Origin: Canibacter zhuwentaonis
GTDB taxonomy: Bacteria; Actinomycetota; Actinomycetes; Actinomycetales; Microbacteriaceae
DNA length: 64,000 bases
Reading direction: 5' to 3'
Assembly: GCF_018531145.1 (NCBI RefSeq)
Contig: NZ_JAHDSZ010000004.1
Coordinates: forward strand, 1-64,000
The translations under genes and the position numbers were made by a program. Of this stretch, positions 11,934 through 18,051 are shown in pieces. Each line of letters starts with the position of its first letter. Position 1 is the first letter of the stretch. A model generated the notes under the pieces. The model saw only the letters and a program-made list of their open reading frames with translations. It was not told where the DNA came from and did not search any database.

Positions 11934-12116
11934 TCAACGTTTCCGCAGCAGAACAGCAGCGACCGCGCAGCCGACACCCAGCAGCACCAAGGACACAGTA
12001 TTCGCGAAACCGGTTATATCACTAACCACGTGCCGAGACCACAGCAGCCCAAAGACTCCTCCCGCGAGCAAAAACAACACCGCAACACCCAACAAAATTT
12101 TTGAAATTTTTGACAT
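11934..12116 (-). CDS. small two-helix membrane protein of the RiPP-like operon
   Basis: A 60-residue protein (MSKISKILLG...) with two hydrophobic helices (about 5-25 and 34-54) and a basic end (LLRKR). The ATG at 12116 is preceded by a GGGAAG purine run; a longer frame to 12146 would overlap the next gene. It is the last gene of the run from 17158 to 11934, 13 bases after the ABC permease. Its size and position are like those of bacteriocin immunity proteins, but this is inference from context. A 9-bp dyad (11912-11920 with 11929-11937) overlaps the stop codon and may act in termination, although no T tract follows. Confidence 0.6.
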   Translation of the reverse strand: MSKISKILLGVAVLFLLAGGVFGLLWSRHVVSDITGFANTVSLVLLGVGCAVAAVLLRKR

Positions 12117-12129
12117 GGCTTCCCTATTC

Positions 12130-12813
12130 CTACTTCCCAATCTCAATCAATCCTTGCCGCGACAGCCACCGCAAAACAAGTATAAAGCACGCCACAGTCG
12201 CAAGCACCGCAGAACCTGTAACGGACACAAGCACAATGAGTGATACACCCTGGGGCGAGTTAGCAAAACTGTTGACGCTCAACATAGAAAGACAGAATGC
12301 AACGAGCAGAGCTGTAGCGTCATTACTCCAGAAGACACCTGCCAGCAACGACAACAGATACAGCGCCGAAGCCAGTAGCCCGGTAAGCCCCGCAGCCACC
12401 ACAATCATCACCACAAACTCGCTTTCTGCCTGCAGCACTGTGAGAATCACCGCAGAGCCGCCCATTAACACGAGCAGGTTGGTCAACACGGAAGGCCAAG
12501 CTACGCTCATAACATCACGCGCGACGTAGTACCCAGCAGTGCGCGGATACGACAGATACATTGACCGATAACGCTTGTGATACAGGGTGAGTATGCCTTT
12601 GCGCTGCCAGAAAGTATCGGTAACCGTGAACACCCAGGCGCAAATGGCAAACGAAATAAACCAGGCTAACGGAGCAGTGACAATATTGCTCTCTGCTGCA
12701 AGCGAAAGCACCACACCAAAAAAGACAATCGCGAAGGCGAACACCCCAAGGCGCAGGGCAACCATAATTATCAGATGCTTGCGTGTCAGCCGCATCGGAT
12801 AGGTGATATTCAT
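12130..12813 (-). CDS. ABC-2-like permease subunit (transporter B)
   Basis: A 227-residue membrane protein with six hydrophobic segments (about 12-40, 46-64, 100-125, 132-160, 165-185 and 190-220). A short soluble loop with TFWQRKGILTLYHKRYRSMYLSYPRT lies near 65-90, resembling the coupling region of small ABC-2 permeases. It overlaps the upstream ATPase gene by four bases (12810-12813), so the pair is translationally coupled and most likely forms one transporter. It may expel a peptide product or protect the producer; the cargo is not shown. Confidence 0.7.
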   Translation of the reverse strand: MNITYPMRLTRKHLIIMVALRLGVFAFAIVFFGVVLSLAAESNIVTAPLAWFISFAICAWVFTVTDTFWQRKGILTLYHKRYRSMYLSYPRTAGYYVARDVMSVAWPSVLTNLLVLMGGSAVILTVLQAESEFVVMIVVAAGLTGLLASALYLLSLLAGVFWSNDATALLVAFCLSMLSVNSFANSPQGVSLIVLVSVTGSAVLATVACFILVLRWLSRQGLIEIGK

Positions 12814-13460
12814 GTGCGCTCCCTCACTGAAGTGTTGTCAATCATAAAAGTTGTATGCCTCACGCCCGCAAACATGGTTGGGTCATGCGTAACGATCAGG
12901 CTAATCCGACCTTCTGCCGCGTGGCTGTCAAGTATTTTAACAAGCAGTGTTTTGCTCTCAGCGTCTAGGGAATTTTCTGGCTCGTCAAGCAGCAACAGGC
13001 TTGGGGAATTAATCCATGCGCGCGCCAGCGCCAAACGCATCCGTTGTCCTGCAGACAGGCTTTCTGTCGCAGTATCAATCTGCTGTGTAAGATCAAAACG
13101 CTCAAGCGTTTCTGCTACTGAAACGCGCTGAGAAAAATGCGCCGCGTGATATTCTAGAGTTTTACGACAGGTCATACCTGGATAAAACACCGGATCACCA
13201 ATCAACGCACCCATATCCTCACGCGGATATCTCAATGGTGACTCTTTGCTAGGTGCCGCAGGCGATACCGCAAACGTGACGCGACCTGCGCTTGGTCGCA
13301 ACATACCCGCAACAACTTTCAAAAGAGTCGTTTTGCCAGACCCGTTCGCCCCGGTAAGCAACACAGTATCACCAGCAGACAAAGAGAGAGAAATATTCTT
13401 TAAAATCTGTTTGCCATTTACCGCACAAGACAAAGAGTCAACTTCAACACGTCCGATCAT
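12810..13460 (-). CDS. ABC transporter ATPase (transporter B)
   Basis: A 216-residue stand-alone nucleotide-binding domain: Walker A GANGSGKTT (about 37-45), a signature changed to LSAGQR (about 135), Walker B LLLLDEPENSLD and the H-loop in IVTHDP. Four-base overlaps on both sides join it to the permeases at 12130-12813 and 13457-14206. With its downstream permease it forms the second of two ABC systems in the operon. Confidence 0.85.
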   Translation of the reverse strand: MIGRVEVDSLSCAVNGKQILKNISLSLSAGDTVLLTGANGSGKTTLLKVVAGMLRPSAGRVTFAVSPAAPSKESPLRYPREDMGALIGDPVFYPGMTCRKTLEYHAAHFSQRVSVAETLERFDLTQQIDTATESLSAGQRMRLALARAWINSPSLLLLDEPENSLDAESKTLLVKILDSHAAEGRISLIVTHDPTMFAGVRHTTFMIDNTSVRERT

Positions 13461-14206
13461 TCTCTCTTCCTCAGTCTACTAATAGCTAACACAAAAGGCG
13501 CAACAAACCAGAAAAATAGAACGGAAAAGTCTCGCCATAATTCTGTATAGGTAACGTTTAATAATCCCTGAGACCATTCCAGAACTCGTAAACCAGGATA
13601 AAACGGTAGTAGCCAGTGAATTAAAACTAACCAATCAGGAAGCCTGTCGGCCGGATACAAAAGCGGCGTAAATAAAAATGCGATCAGGGCCAACGCTTGA
13701 CTAAGGAGCTGAACAAGCCCAAGTTTAAAATAGAGAGCCAACACGATACCAAGACCTACATAAATACAAACCAAAAGCATCGCGAATAGAAATGACTCTA
13801 AGCGAATTGGTGGAAGATTACGAAACTTTAACATAGCCACGAAAAAGCTAATGACAAATCCAAGCGATGACATAATTAACCAAACAAAAAGCTCAGATAA
13901 AAAGATCGTAGATCGACGAACAGGCAATGTTTTTACATAATCTACGTATCCGCTCAAATTGCTTTCGGAAATAATTTGGGGGCAAATAGAAAGACCGATT
14001 ATTATTGAGCTCAGTAACCAGACAGAACACAAAGTCTTACCACTGGTAATTGGTGATGAATCTTGAGAATGACCAGCAATTAAAGGTAATCCCCAAAAAA
14101 CTGCAAGACTAAAAAGTATTTGAACACCGGGGAGTACAACCCATAAAGCTTTGTATCGTAGGAAAGTAAACCATAGGATGCCCACGATTTGGTTGGCTGA
14201 AGTCAT
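13457..14206 (-). CDS. ABC-2-type permease subunit (transporter A)
   Basis: A 249-residue protein with six predicted membrane helices (about 17-40, 58-78, 103-128, 135-165, 170-190 and 222-243) and no soluble domain, as in ABC-2 permeases for drugs or peptides. Its start overlaps the stop of the ATPase at 14203 by four bases. The sequence is visibly richer in A+T than the rib genes nearby. Cargo is unknown; peptide export or self-protection fits the context. Confidence 0.75.
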   Translation of the reverse strand: MTSANQIVGILWFTFLRYKALWVVLPGVQILFSLAVFWGLPLIAGHSQDSSPITSGKTLCSVWLLSSIIIGLSICPQIISESNLSGYVDYVKTLPVRRSTIFLSELFVWLIMSSLGFVISFFVAMLKFRNLPPIRLESFLFAMLLVCIYVGLGIVLALYFKLGLVQLLSQALALIAFLFTPLLYPADRLPDWLVLIHWLLPFYPGLRVLEWSQGLLNVTYTELWRDFSVLFFWFVAPFVLAISRLRKRE

Positions 14207-15135
14207 TTTTCCAGCTCCCTTGTATTGAGCGCCTGCAAGCTTTCATAAATGTCGGCAAATCGGGGAGTAAAAGCAGCATTAAAATCGTGGATAGTTCCGG
14301 CGGTCATTTGATTCTCTATGGATCCCAAAAAAGAAATGATATCTTTTCGAGGAACGATATAAACAACTTTGTTTCCGACAGCCTCGGAGATATAATTCTT
14401 AGAATAATCCGGAATAAACCGAGTGTCGTAGACCACCTCAAAACGAACGTTATCGGTAAGTTTAGAAAGACTCTTTGTTTGACCGGAATAAACCAACTCT
14501 CCGTTATTAAGAACCAGAACATGGGAGGAATTAGCATCAATTTCATCCAAGTTGTGAGAGGTGACTATAAAAGTTCTCCCTTTATCGGTTTGAGTTCGCA
14601 AGAAATCCCACATTAAGGAACGTCGCTCAGGGTCAACATCATTAGTTGGCTCATCCAAGAGGGTGTAAGAAGCCCCTTGGATAAGAGCCATTCCCAGTGA
14701 CACAAGACGAAGTACGCCCCCGCTAAGGCTCTCTGAAGGAGATTTTGCCCAAGCGTCAAGTTTAAGAGCCTCGAAATATTCTGCAATGTTGCTTCGTGCT
14801 TGATTTCGAGATATTCCCCGAATCATAGCAGCGCTCATTAGAGCTTCCTGGGGCGTGACTCCACGCAAATAAGCATAGCTTTGAGTCATAAACGCGAAAG
14901 TTTCACGACATTTATTTGGGTGGCGCAAAATATTTTGTCCAGAATCTATACGAACTTCACCGTAACTGGGTTTGATATTTCCTGAGAGGATTCCCATCAA
15001 AGTCGATTTGCCAGCCCCATTATGTCCAGTCAAACCGATAATGTTACCGTCCTCACTCGACCAGCTGACTGAACGTAAGGCATATTTTCTTGATAGCCTG
15101 TAACGCTTACTAACCTCAAGTATCTCTAGAGCCAT
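14203..15135 (-). CDS. ABC transporter ATPase (transporter A)
   Basis: A 310-residue ATPase of the ABC-2 (CcmA/BcrA-like) group: Walker A GHNGAGKSTL (about 36-45), Q-loop near MTQSYAYLRG, signature LSGGVLRL (about 138), Walker B YTLLDEPTNDVDPE, H-loop TSHN. About 90 residues follow the ATPase core, as in BcrA-like exporters. It overlaps the M50-like gene by ten bases and its own permease gene by four, so all belong to one operon. Confidence 0.88.
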   Translation of the reverse strand: MALEILEVSKRYRLSRKYALRSVSWSSEDGNIIGLTGHNGAGKSTLMGILSGNIKPSYGEVRIDSGQNILRHPNKCRETFAFMTQSYAYLRGVTPQEALMSAAMIRGISRNQARSNIAEYFEALKLDAWAKSPSESLSGGVLRLVSLGMALIQGASYTLLDEPTNDVDPERRSLMWDFLRTQTDKGRTFIVTSHNLDEIDANSSHVLVLNNGELVYSGQTKSLSKLTDNVRFEVVYDTRFIPDYSKNYISEAVGNKVVYIVPRKDIISFLGSIENQMTAGTIHDFNAAFTPRFADIYESLQALNTRELEK

Positions 15136-15896
15136 CTGAAACCTCCTTGGGGTAAATCAACCAGGAGCGGAAACACCCAGCAAGCAAGGTAAATGGTATC
15201 ACAAAAAATAGCAAGACCAGATCTAACACGCCAATCTAACCTATGCAGAAACCCCTCGGGCTTGTCTAACAAAAAATTAATTGTTAGTGCAACATCTCGT
15301 TTTGCAAAAATATTGAATTGCCATAGTATTCGAAAGACTAAAACTGACCAAACAAACAAGGCAAATTGGATGCCTGTAGTTAAAAAGAATAAAACAGCGA
15401 CGCCCGCCAAGGCAAAGTCCAGAGCTATCCCCAAAAGCAATGCGTCTATAGCACAGAGTTTAGGCCACGACCAAATATGATTAAGCTTTGTTCGCATTAC
15501 AAAAGTTATAAGGTTACTAGACAGATGTATTGATCTTCCAAAAATCATGTGCATCAGTTCATGCGCCACTGTGCTCACAATAGCCACCAATACAAGTAAT
15601 AAGAAACTAATCAGTAGACTGTGGTCAAGCGAAGCCCATATCCTCGCTGAAGGCAATATGCTATGTGATAAAATAAATACCAATGTTAGGCAAAGACCTG
15701 CCGTACCGAGCAAACGAACAAGTAGGCGTGATATTTCCCAGAATATGCCTTCGGGTTGTCTAATGTCCTGGCTTTCATTCGCATCACTGTGAGAATGTTT
15801 CCAGTTGTTCCAATCCTCTAGACTATTAAAAATAAGCGGAGTCAACGATGCGTTCGTCACTACCACGCGACCATCTTTGAGAGTACGAAAACGCAT
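15126..15896 (-). CDS. M50-like membrane metalloprotease of the RiPP-like operon
   Basis: A 256-residue integral membrane protein with about six hydrophobic segments. The third carries HELMH (H112, E113, H116), the HExxH zinc site of site-2-type proteases. A later NIFAKRD segment supplies D201 at the place where peptide zinc metalloproteases of the YydH kind have N-x-x-P...D-G as third ligand. Such proteases cut modified precursor peptides within the membrane. A soluble N-terminal part of about 55 residues precedes the helices. I start it at ATG 15896, five bases after AGAGG; the TTG just before is possible. It follows the E1-like gene by eight bases. The proteolytic role is inferred. Confidence 0.7.
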   Translation of the reverse strand: MRFRTLKDGRVVVTNASLTPLIFNSLEDWNNWKHSHSDANESQDIRQPEGIFWEISRLLVRLLGTAGLCLTLVFILSHSILPSARIWASLDHSLLISFLLLVLVAIVSTVAHELMHMIFGRSIHLSSNLITFVMRTKLNHIWSWPKLCAIDALLLGIALDFALAGVAVLFFLTTGIQFALFVWSVLVFRILWQFNIFAKRDVALTINFLLDKPEGFLHRLDWRVRSGLAIFCDTIYLACWVFPLLVDLPQGGFRWL

Positions 15897-15904
15897 CAAT
15901 ACCT

Positions 15905-17032
15905 CTAGACATCCTCGTTATAGTACGAAAATATCTCCCAGTCTTCATACCTCCCATGACCGCATGTTGGGCATTTATCAAATTTTGACCAGTCGGGATG
16001 TGAAAAACTAGTGTAATTCACGTAATCTATTTCATGCTGGTGTCCCAGAGTTTTAGGTTCAGCAAAGTTTGTTACCAGCCGAACACACTCATCAACCATA
16101 ACGGATGCAATCTGCCATATTGAAGGACCATAAGCAATAGTTGGAGGCGTAAATCCAGATTCGTGAAAGCCTCTGAACTGAGCTACAAAATTTGCATCAT
16201 TTTTCGAGTAGTATAGATTCAGGCAATCGAAACAACCAGTATTCCCCGGGATTATTGTAAAAACACGACCGTGCGTAAGTTGTGTAGCTCCAAAAACGCA
16301 GGGCTTATTTAGATTCACAATTGCTTTATTAACTCTCCGTTGAGCCACAAACGGCGGCTCGTCAAGCGCGCATATAACTATATCTGCATCGCTTATAACT
16401 GCTTCAACATCACCCACTGAACTGATTCGCTTATTTACGCCTTCTACCTTCAAATCAGGATTCATATCGTTTAAAGCCGCCACAGCTGCTTCAACCTTTA
16501 GCTTTCCTATATCAGAAGACCGATATAGGAATTGTCTTCCCAGATTCGATAACTCAACTTTGTCATAATCCACAAGAGTTACCTTACCAAATCCAATACC
16601 AGAGAGGAGTGTTGCGATGTTAGACCCACCGCCGCCAAGACCCAGCAACGCTACTGTAGTTCTAGCTAATGTCTTATGCGCTATTTCTGCTTTTAAAGAA
16701 CTCCCACTAGGCTGCGCCGCGTAATATTCAACATTTGATAAATATCGCTCCGGGATGCTATCATACTCATGCTTGTCGTCTAATAGTCCGTACTGGGCGA
16801 GTATATCTAGCCCCTTGATAATATCTTGTGAAGATAGATCTGGGTGGACTAATTGGACTCGGTTAATCACATCACCTACTGAAGATCCGTCTAAAGCGTT
16901 CACGAGAGTTCTCATCTGACCTTTTGGATCTGTAAATTGTGCGGTAATGCCCAGCTGTGCCCCTATACGAAACACAGTATCCGTTAAATCATAAACAGGT
17001 AATGATTTCTTAATAAGCGGATTAGAATACAT
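15905..17032 (-). CDS. E1-like (ThiF/MccB/PaaA-type) peptide-modifying enzyme
   Basis: A 375-residue protein. Residues 1-115 form a small domain like the peptide-clamp/recognition part of MccB. Residues 116-375 are an E1-like adenylating domain: ATP loop GLGGGG (131-136), VDYDKVE with D157, SNLGRQFLY (162-170), DIGKLK, and two zinc Cys pairs (C267/C270 and C354/C357). In microcin C and pantocin A pathways such enzymes adenylate a short ribosomal peptide. Here the gene directly follows the 20-codon peptide gene, separated by a stem-loop, and precedes a metalloprotease and two ABC transporters. AAGGA stands five bases before the ATG. A role in ThiS-type sulfur transfer is less likely because no thi or moa genes adjoin it. 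Confidence 0.82.
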   Translation of the reverse strand: MYSNPLIKKSLPVYDLTDTVFRIGAQLGITAQFTDPKGQMRTLVNALDGSSVGDVINRVQLVHPDLSSQDIIKGLDILAQYGLLDDKHEYDSIPERYLSNVEYYAAQPSGSSLKAEIAHKTLARTTVALLGLGGGGSNIATLLSGIGFGKVTLVDYDKVELSNLGRQFLYRSSDIGKLKVEAAVAALNDMNPDLKVEGVNKRISSVGDVEAVISDADIVICALDEPPFVAQRRVNKAIVNLNKPCVFGATQLTHGRVFTIIPGNTGCFDCLNLYYSKNDANFVAQFRGFHESGFTPPTIAYGPSIWQIASVMVDECVRLVTNFAEPKTLGHQHEIDYVNYTSFSHPDWSKFDKCPTCGHGRYEDWEIFSYYNEDV

Positions 17033-17049
17033 AACAGTCCTTTATAACA

Positions 17050-17087
17050 GTAAGTACGGGTGTCCAAAAAAGTGAACCCGTACTTAC
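17050..17087 (-). terminator. stem-loop between peptide gene and E1-like gene
   Basis: A perfect 12-bp stem (17050-17061 with 17076-17087, GTAAGTACGGGT/ACCCGTACTTAC) closes a 14-base T-rich loop. It begins nine bases after the peptide stop and ends 18 bases before the enzyme start. No long T tract follows, so it looks like a leaky terminator or processing/stability hairpin that lets the peptide be made in excess of the enzyme. Confidence 0.7.
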
Positions 17088-17095
17088 CCTTTTAA

Positions 17096-17158
17096 TTAGA
17101 AGATGATCCACCATGCGGCGGCTTCTACCTCTTCAGCGCGTTCAACCTTCACGTCCAT
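17096..17158 (-). CDS. candidate 20-residue precursor peptide
   Basis: ATG at 17158 opens a 20-codon frame ending TAA: MDVKVERAEEVEAAAWWIIF. A near-perfect ribosome site (GAAGGAGG) lies six bases before it, and an in-frame TAA 18 bases upstream leaves no longer start. The first half is charged (Asp, Lys, Glu, Arg) and the end is hydrophobic (AAAWWIIF), as in a leader-core arrangement. It is the first gene before an MccB/PaaA-like enzyme, a protease and two exporters. The Glu-Glu pair at 9-10 recalls the Glu-Glu used by PaaA in pantocin, and the Trp-Trp recalls double-tryptophan pheromones; both are analogies only. Too short for ordinary gene callers. Confidence 0.72.
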   Translation of the reverse strand: MDVKVERAEEVEAAAWWIIF

Positions 17159-17245
17159 TTTTCCCTCCTTCGTTTACTACTTTTGATAGGGGATTGGGAG
17201 CTTTTGCAACTCCCAGCTTTATGATATCAGCCTACACAGAATTGG
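17159..17245 (-). promoter_or_regulatory. leader and putative promoter of the peptide operon
   Basis: On the minus strand TTGCGC and TATCAT lie 18 bases apart, ending near 17221, and could be -35/-10 boxes; a TTGACA farther up (near 17262) is an alternative -35. The leader holds a hairpin (TGGGAG/CTCCCA, 17195-17200 with 17210-17215) and the strong SD at about 17163-17170. Promoter boxes are by eye only. Confidence 0.45.
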
Positions 17246-17969: not shown

Positions 17970-17978
17970 CACAACCAG

Positions 17979-18051
17979 TGGACCCTGGGAGAATCGAACT
18001 CCCGACATCTTGCTTGCAAAGCAAGCGCTCTACCAACTGAGCTAAGGGCCC
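17979..18051 (-). tRNA. tRNA-Ala (TGC anticodon)
   Basis: Minus-strand GGGCCCTTAGCTCAG, anticodon loop TTTGCAA (TGC), T-arm GGAGTTCGATTCTCC and 3' AGGGTCC plus A fold as a standard 73-base tRNA. CCA is not encoded. Accessory DNA borders its 3' side. Confidence 0.96.

Follow-up and report, generated by a model that had tools for sequence, protein, structure and literature searches.

Taken together, the comparisons of genes and proteins described below suggest that the window (the whole 64,000-nucleotide stretch of Canibacter zhuwentaonis DNA that was analysed) probably contains a genuine RiPP operon of the enterofaecin/indolylamide kind, in which a 20-residue precursor would be closed into an indolylamide ring between Trp17 and Phe20, trimmed and exported. 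The components that are conserved in related clusters are a mini-gene encoding a leader and a W-x-x-hydrophobic C-terminus; an RRE-ThiF enzyme of the IndF clade whose ATP-site residues are intact; an HExxH membrane protease; and one ABC exporter pair. The preliminary description, made from the window alone, had proposed a RiPP operon in which a peptide substrate is bound and modified by an enzyme of the MccB/PaaA fold, matured by a protease and exported, the enzyme having an additional domain for peptide binding; in these respects it is supported. It had also considered the combination unfamiliar, a claim that has to be abandoned: such clusters have been described as 'WWIII-type' enterofaecin clusters from lactic acid bacteria (ACS Omega 2024, as summarised in PMC12250964) and as the ind cluster (PMC12150305). 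Since both the precursor and the gene order match those given for the 'WWIII-type' in that summary, the window cluster appears to be an actinobacterial member of the enterofaecin kind. The actinobacterial member is new; the kind itself was described in 2024-2025. The features of the run are as follows.

17163..17169 (-), Shine-Dalgarno AGGAGGG of the precursor gene (from the sequence; a ribosome site also precedes the orthologous mini-ORFs)
17158..17096 (-), precursor peptide gene, 20 aa MDVKVERAEEVEAAAWWIIF and stop (from the sequence and the orthologous mini-ORFs)
17050..17087 (-), perfect 12-bp hairpin in the precursor/ThiF interval (RNA fold z -3.9)
17032..15905 (-), predicted RRE-ThiF (E1-like) adenylating cyclase, 375 aa (Pfam ThiF, PDB matches, tree, ATP-site residues)
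16763..17032 (-), predicted N-terminal leader-binding (RRE) domain, enzyme residues 1 to about 90 (AlphaFold, Foldseek)
15899..15126 (-), HExxH membrane protease, distant YydH/LiaK relative (invariant residues, NF058609 matches)
14203..15135 (-), ABC ATPase 1, drrA-like, conserved in related clusters
13457..14206 (-), ABC-2 permease 1, conserved in related clusters
12810..13460 (-), ABC ATPase 2, CcmA-like, in the position of the second ATPase of related clusters, with generic ABC similarity only
12130..12813 (-), membrane protein (permease 2), without detectable homology to the permease that is second in related clusters
11934..12116 (-), small membrane protein of 60 aa, last in the run (ORF only; membership uncertain)

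The precursor gene and its tryptophan

The 20-codon gene behind a strong ribosome site that was noticed at the outset is indeed present, with AGGAGGG located 4 nt 5' of the ATG, and the encoded peptide ends in WWIIF, which places Trp17 three residues before the last residue, Phe20. The tight spacing ascribed to the whole run holds from the ThiF gene on, where the genes overlap by 4-10 bp or are separated by gaps of 5-13 bp, but not for the precursor gene, which is separated from the ThiF gene by 63 bp, with the hairpin inside. Most of the relatives have a hairpin in the equivalent interval, with differing sequences; this element is possibly an attenuator or a processing site and would probably keep precursor synthesis above enzyme synthesis.

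The preliminary description hinged on a conserved mini-ORF in front of homologous enzymes, and such an ORF is kept: a mini-ORF of 15-30 codons with a ribosome site and Trp at position -4 lies upstream of the enzyme gene in 28 of the 29 family loci with enough upstream sequence, the window included, in both Actinomycetota and Bacillota, compared with 0.8 loci expected by chance from dinucleotide shuffles of the same upstream regions. The initial scan demanded Trp within the last eight residues, and the shuffle control gauged the chance yield of that filter. All 24 distinct precursors conform to the pattern W-x-x-[F/I/V/A], with the last residue being F (12), I (6), V (5) or A (1); the residue preceding Trp(-4) is W, S, K, N or L, positions -3 and -2 vary among I, V, G and F, and Trp at -4 is the sole invariant residue of the core. 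The WW-type accounts for 13 of the 24, and among 13 WW-type 21-mers, changes at codon positions 1, 2 and 3 number 240, 185 and 873, respectively, a concentration at the third position that bears the mark of translated genes.

The exception among the 29 loci is that of Faecalicatena absiana (L061), where a possible frame-broken candidate ending in VWTVF can be seen by eye within some 120 bases ahead of the match. Two precursor genes, ending in KWVIF and SWIIF, stand in tandem in Nonomuraea cypriaca (L060), 346 and 233 bases ahead of the start of the match. Outgroup ThiF enzymes encoded on Macrococcus and Sporosarcina plasmids (L032:6875-8092 and L033:6861-9601) come with the mini-ORFs MSLKMETIKNKAALLGGVPG and MKIRKLSNKQVSKTAVEPR, which have no Trp; these loci possibly represent further ThiF-RiPP kinds. 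A larger Actinomycetota sample yielded no additional members on which to test the Trp rule independently.

Protease, transporters and the role of the product

The protease of the window carries the motif HELMH, and H113, E114, H117, D161 and D202 are invariant among the 16 aligned protease sequences. The original assignment to the M50 type retains validity for the HExxH motif and the membrane location, but not for the family: no Pfam M50 model matches the protein, and the label was dropped. The YydH/LiaK model NF058609 matches six of the 16 orthologues (best E 1.3e-6; also 25.7 bits, E 7.9e-6) but not the window protease itself, and the orthologues reach a few tens of bits at most against a cut-off of 225 bits; judging by these matches, the protease is only a distant relative of the YydH/LiaK family. 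A Foldseek search with the good model of the protease found no PDB relative, so that fold comparison is neutral with respect to an S2P-like site. The proposed role would be to cut off the leader at the membrane. Release of the mature epipeptide is attributed to YydH (PMC7026026). The yydFGHIJ operon resembles the window cluster in that a precursor, a modifying enzyme, an HExxH membrane protease (distantly related) and an ABC pair are joined in one operon, but its modifying enzyme is a radical SAM epimerase whereas that of the window is of the ThiF type; no radical SAM match was found among the proteins of the run. The protease is present in 16 of 16 WW-type loci and in none of the 12 single-Trp loci, but this association with the second Trp(-5) is not significant given that only 2-3 independent changes occurred on the tree. 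In a Microbacterium cluster with a single Trp (SWGII; L036:13155-14477), an MFS protein replaces the protease and the ABC genes.

Both ATPase-permease pairs that had been recognized in the run are there (15135..12130), but the first alone is conserved in related clusters, with orthologues at about 30-40% identity; it would export the product or protect the producer from it. Permease 2 produced no blastp match to the second permease of related clusters and an hhalign probability of 0.14%. Although the genes of pair 2 overlap the run, their GC content of 49-52% is native and their permease bears no relation to its counterpart in the other clusters, so that this pair looks like an added or replaced transporter; the non-homology of permease 2 rules the pair out as part of the conserved set. 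The 60-aa ORF at the end of the run matches no family above the cut-off.

This pathway would yield a cyclic peptide, small and hydrophobic, that acts either as a signal or against close relatives of the producer. The suggestion that the cyclised peptide is a signalling pheromone and not an antagonist pertains to the role only and is compatible with the ring chemistry favored here; we entertain it tentatively. Two-component genes stand beside several clusters (L031:6510-8512, L048:4579-6575, L058:4670-6608 and L040:3209-5021): in Niallia and at two Streptococcus loci, a GHKL kinase and a LytTR regulator are encoded upstream in divergent orientation, which points to density control in some Bacillota relatives, and Mobiluncus has an HK/RR pair, a histidine kinase with a LuxR-type regulator. 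There is, however, no regulator beside the window cluster, and an antimicrobial is the product of the yydFGHIJ operon, which is laid out similarly and includes a protease and an ABC pair (PMC7026026).

The putative adenylating enzyme and the proposed bond

The 375-residue E1-like enzyme with an extra N-terminal domain, as initially described, is borne out by the match to Pfam PF00899 (E 6e-56) and by a confident AlphaFold model (pLDDT 92.6), in which the N-terminal domain consists of strands, three helices and a strand and is of the RRE kind. MccB heads the list of a PDB sequence search, in which PaaA also matches over almost the entire length. In Foldseek, the whole chain aligns to full-length MccB over 357-368 columns (TM 0.75-0.79 by query length; for the best match, E 5e-25, TM is 0.77 by query and 0.86 by target length) and to PaaA with TM 0.67, compared with 0.78 for MccB; the similarity to ThiF and MoeB is confined to the catalytic part. 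The enzyme scores far below the NCBIfam ThiF/MoeB cut-offs and falls outside ThiF/MoeB in the tree, thus escaping the grouping that would have undermined the initial reading; this position, along with the N-terminal domain, rules out a sulfur-carrier role. Hence the MccB/PaaA assignment applies to the fold, but the mechanism appears to be closest to those of IndF and the enterofaecin enzyme EnfB. In the tree, the family and IndF form a single clade (support 96/93, with long branches joined and both IndF rows partial) that leaves MccB outside, and a topology test rejects the grouping of IndF with MccB (p 0.032); the window enzyme pairs with that of Mobiluncus porci (55% identity, support 100/96). 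The ATP-site residues R166, Q167, K179 and D224 are in place, with R166, K179 and D224 invariant among 22 homologues, and the motif DEPP[F/Y]-x-AQR is common to nearly all members of the clade, IndF included.

In S. pneumoniae, the bond that IndF forms in EDTTNWYFI links N1 of the Trp with the C-terminal Ile (Trp6 to Ile9, by NMR), and the W6A substitution in IndA abolishes conversion (PMC12150305). The ind cluster shares with the window the W-x-x-hydrophobic C-terminus and a sister-clade enzyme of about 30% identity with the same motif and with Q167 and K179, which are kept in the family enzymes at identical residue numbers. It differs in the longer, acidic leader of IndA, in its protease, IndP, which is of the M16 type and takes the place of the HExxH membrane protease, and in Tyr228 and Lys256 of IndF, residues near the Trp that are replaced by Phe (F228) and Arg (R256) in the window enzyme. 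Tyr228, one of the two candidates for indole activation, is retained in one Streptococcus relative, the other family enzymes having Phe, and residue 256 is basic throughout the compared enzymes. Streptococcus sp. Marseille-Q5986 carries the IndA core next to an IndF-like gene that is cut by the contig end; IndA peptides ending in NTTNWYFI or DTTNWYFI accompany IndF-like genes in Streptococcus sp. 121 and Marseille-Q5986 (L070:1426-2776, L071:1-1179), with IndF of Streptococcus sp. 121 being frame-broken.

In the reaction that we envisage for the window, the RRE domain would bind the leader, the catalytic domain would adenylate the Phe20 carboxylate, and Trp17, which precedes Phe20 by three residues, would attack the acyl-AMP through its indole N1 to yield a four-residue indolylamide ring with a mass change of -18 Da. 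For the whole group, the indolylamide is favored by the invariance of Trp(-4) at the IndA spacing, the common clade with IndF, and the shared motif, Q167 and K179. In that case, general activation of the indole cannot depend on Tyr228 and is better assigned to residue 256 as a candidate. The initial notion that the peptide is adenylated or crosslinked is thereby narrowed: a ring from Trp to the C-terminus seems to be favored, and a nucleotide adduct or a Glu-Glu bicycle disfavored.

Enterofaecin is the closest point of reference for an alternative bond. EnfA of Enterococcus faecalis, of 21 residues and ending in WWIVI, is processed by EnfB, which is encoded beside four transporter genes (ACS Omega 2024, doi 10.1021/acsomega.4c03760, as summarised in PMC12250964); for EnfB, the summary gives two proposed routes: either the backbone N of Ile19 attacks and an imide results, or the C-terminus is amidated when amines are present. 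As far as that summary goes, the two systems share a 20-21-residue precursor ending in WWI-x-x, an RRE-ThiF enzyme, ABC transporter genes and a mobile, patchy spread, and R167/K180/D225 of EnfB, by description, correspond to R166/K179/D224 of the window with a +1 offset. The window differs in its actinobacterial host, the C-terminal Phe, the non-conserved second ABC pair and the proposed ring chemistry. The enterofaecin leader motif there is (V/I)RKA, compared to VERA at the aligned place in the window and to VRRA or VRKA in many relatives; against the four enterofaecin transporter proteins stand the two ABC pairs of the window, of which pair 1 is homologous to that of the relatives and permease 2 is not. 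The same operon and peptide might, then, give an enterofaecin-type backbone imide or a C-terminal amide with a free amine, but we deem this unlikely. The MS and NMR results summarised for EnfB with its closely similar substrate (PMC12250964) support the imide, and both the substitution of Phe for Tyr228 and the VERA leader count against the reading favored here; but backbone attack leaves the invariance of Trp(-4) beside the varied -3 and -2 positions unexplained, the sister enzyme IndF makes an indolylamide, and, according to the authors of the IndF study, the enterofaecin structure needs further NMR (PMC12150305). Given the invariant Trp(-4), the enterofaecin imide should be re-examined. We are inclined to favor the broader proposition that four-residue indolylamide rings are formed throughout the clade, enterofaecin included, in which case the published backbone imide would be wrong, and that the Trp(-5) of the WW-type is paired with the YydH/LiaK-like protease.

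Distribution and implications

Plasmids and 297 genomes of the order were searched, and close relatives turned up on a Niallia megaplasmid and in two genomes, one from the order (G062) and one from the family to which the window belongs (G097). A contig scan with the alignment of the relatives gave 27 loci, in Mobiluncus, Actinomyces, Corynebacterium, Tessaracoccus, Nonomuraea, Microbacterium, Streptococcus, Lactococcus, lactobacilli and Clostridia. A set of genes for precursor, ThiF enzyme, protease and ABC pair recurs in Actinomycetota and Bacillota. The mixture of phyla, the patchy presence (one of five genomes of the genus, two of 300 of the family and one of 397 in the phylum sample) and the low GC of the core genes (39.5-43.3% vs 50.7% for the window) point to horizontal acquisition of the operon. 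Four genomes of the genus lack the cluster and have trpS and xth side by side. A tRNA-Ala(TGC) gene, a possible insertion-site neighbour, is located at 17978-18051 of the window, about 0.8 kb upstream of the precursor gene. A viral or phage origin was rejected, the viral scans and phage records having given remote ThiF matches only.

The same patchiness and the low-GC island could reflect a cluster that is decayed or silent in this genome, as could the lack of a sigma-70-like promoter above chance at the window cluster and the interrupted ThiF frames of two relatives, Streptococcus sp. LQJ-218 and S. thoraltensis (L057, L066), where the precursor ORFs are intact; but with every reading frame of the window cluster intact, tight translational coupling and a strong ribosome site, decay seems quite improbable. 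Least credible of all is a microcin C-like pathway in which the enzyme would leave a nucleotide on the peptide to create a Trojan-horse antibiotic: MccB is the best PDB match in both sequence and fold, but it lies outside the clade, none of the 24 precursors has the C-terminal Asn, which rules out membership, and the run has no mccE/F-type genes. The resemblance to microcin C7 otherwise lies in the short precursor behind a strong ribosome site and the hairpin between the precursor and enzyme genes, a terminator between mccA and mccB in microcin C (PMC6495379); the difference is that MccA ends in Asn and acquires a P-N linked nucleotide, whereas the window peptide ends in Phe. Pantocin A shares the RRE-ThiF fold and the logic of intramolecular dehydration, but PaaA acts on a Glu-Glu inside its substrate and requires a follower peptide; the window precursor has no follower, and the EE at its positions 9-10 is not conserved among the 24 distinct precursors, so that membership in the pantocin kind is ruled out as well.

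N-acylindole bonds, of which the predicted indolylamide of the window would be one, are chemically hard to make, and in the RiPP literature cited here, a single enzyme is credited with making them. The comparative signature extends this kind to Actinomycetota, and the combination of Trp at -4, a hydrophobic C-terminus and an enzyme with DEPP[F/Y]-x-AQR provides a simple rule for finding more indolylamide candidates. What the present analysis adds is this comparative precursor rule and the challenge to the published enterofaecin bond, a disputed structure that now becomes directly testable on small, easily expressed gene pairs.
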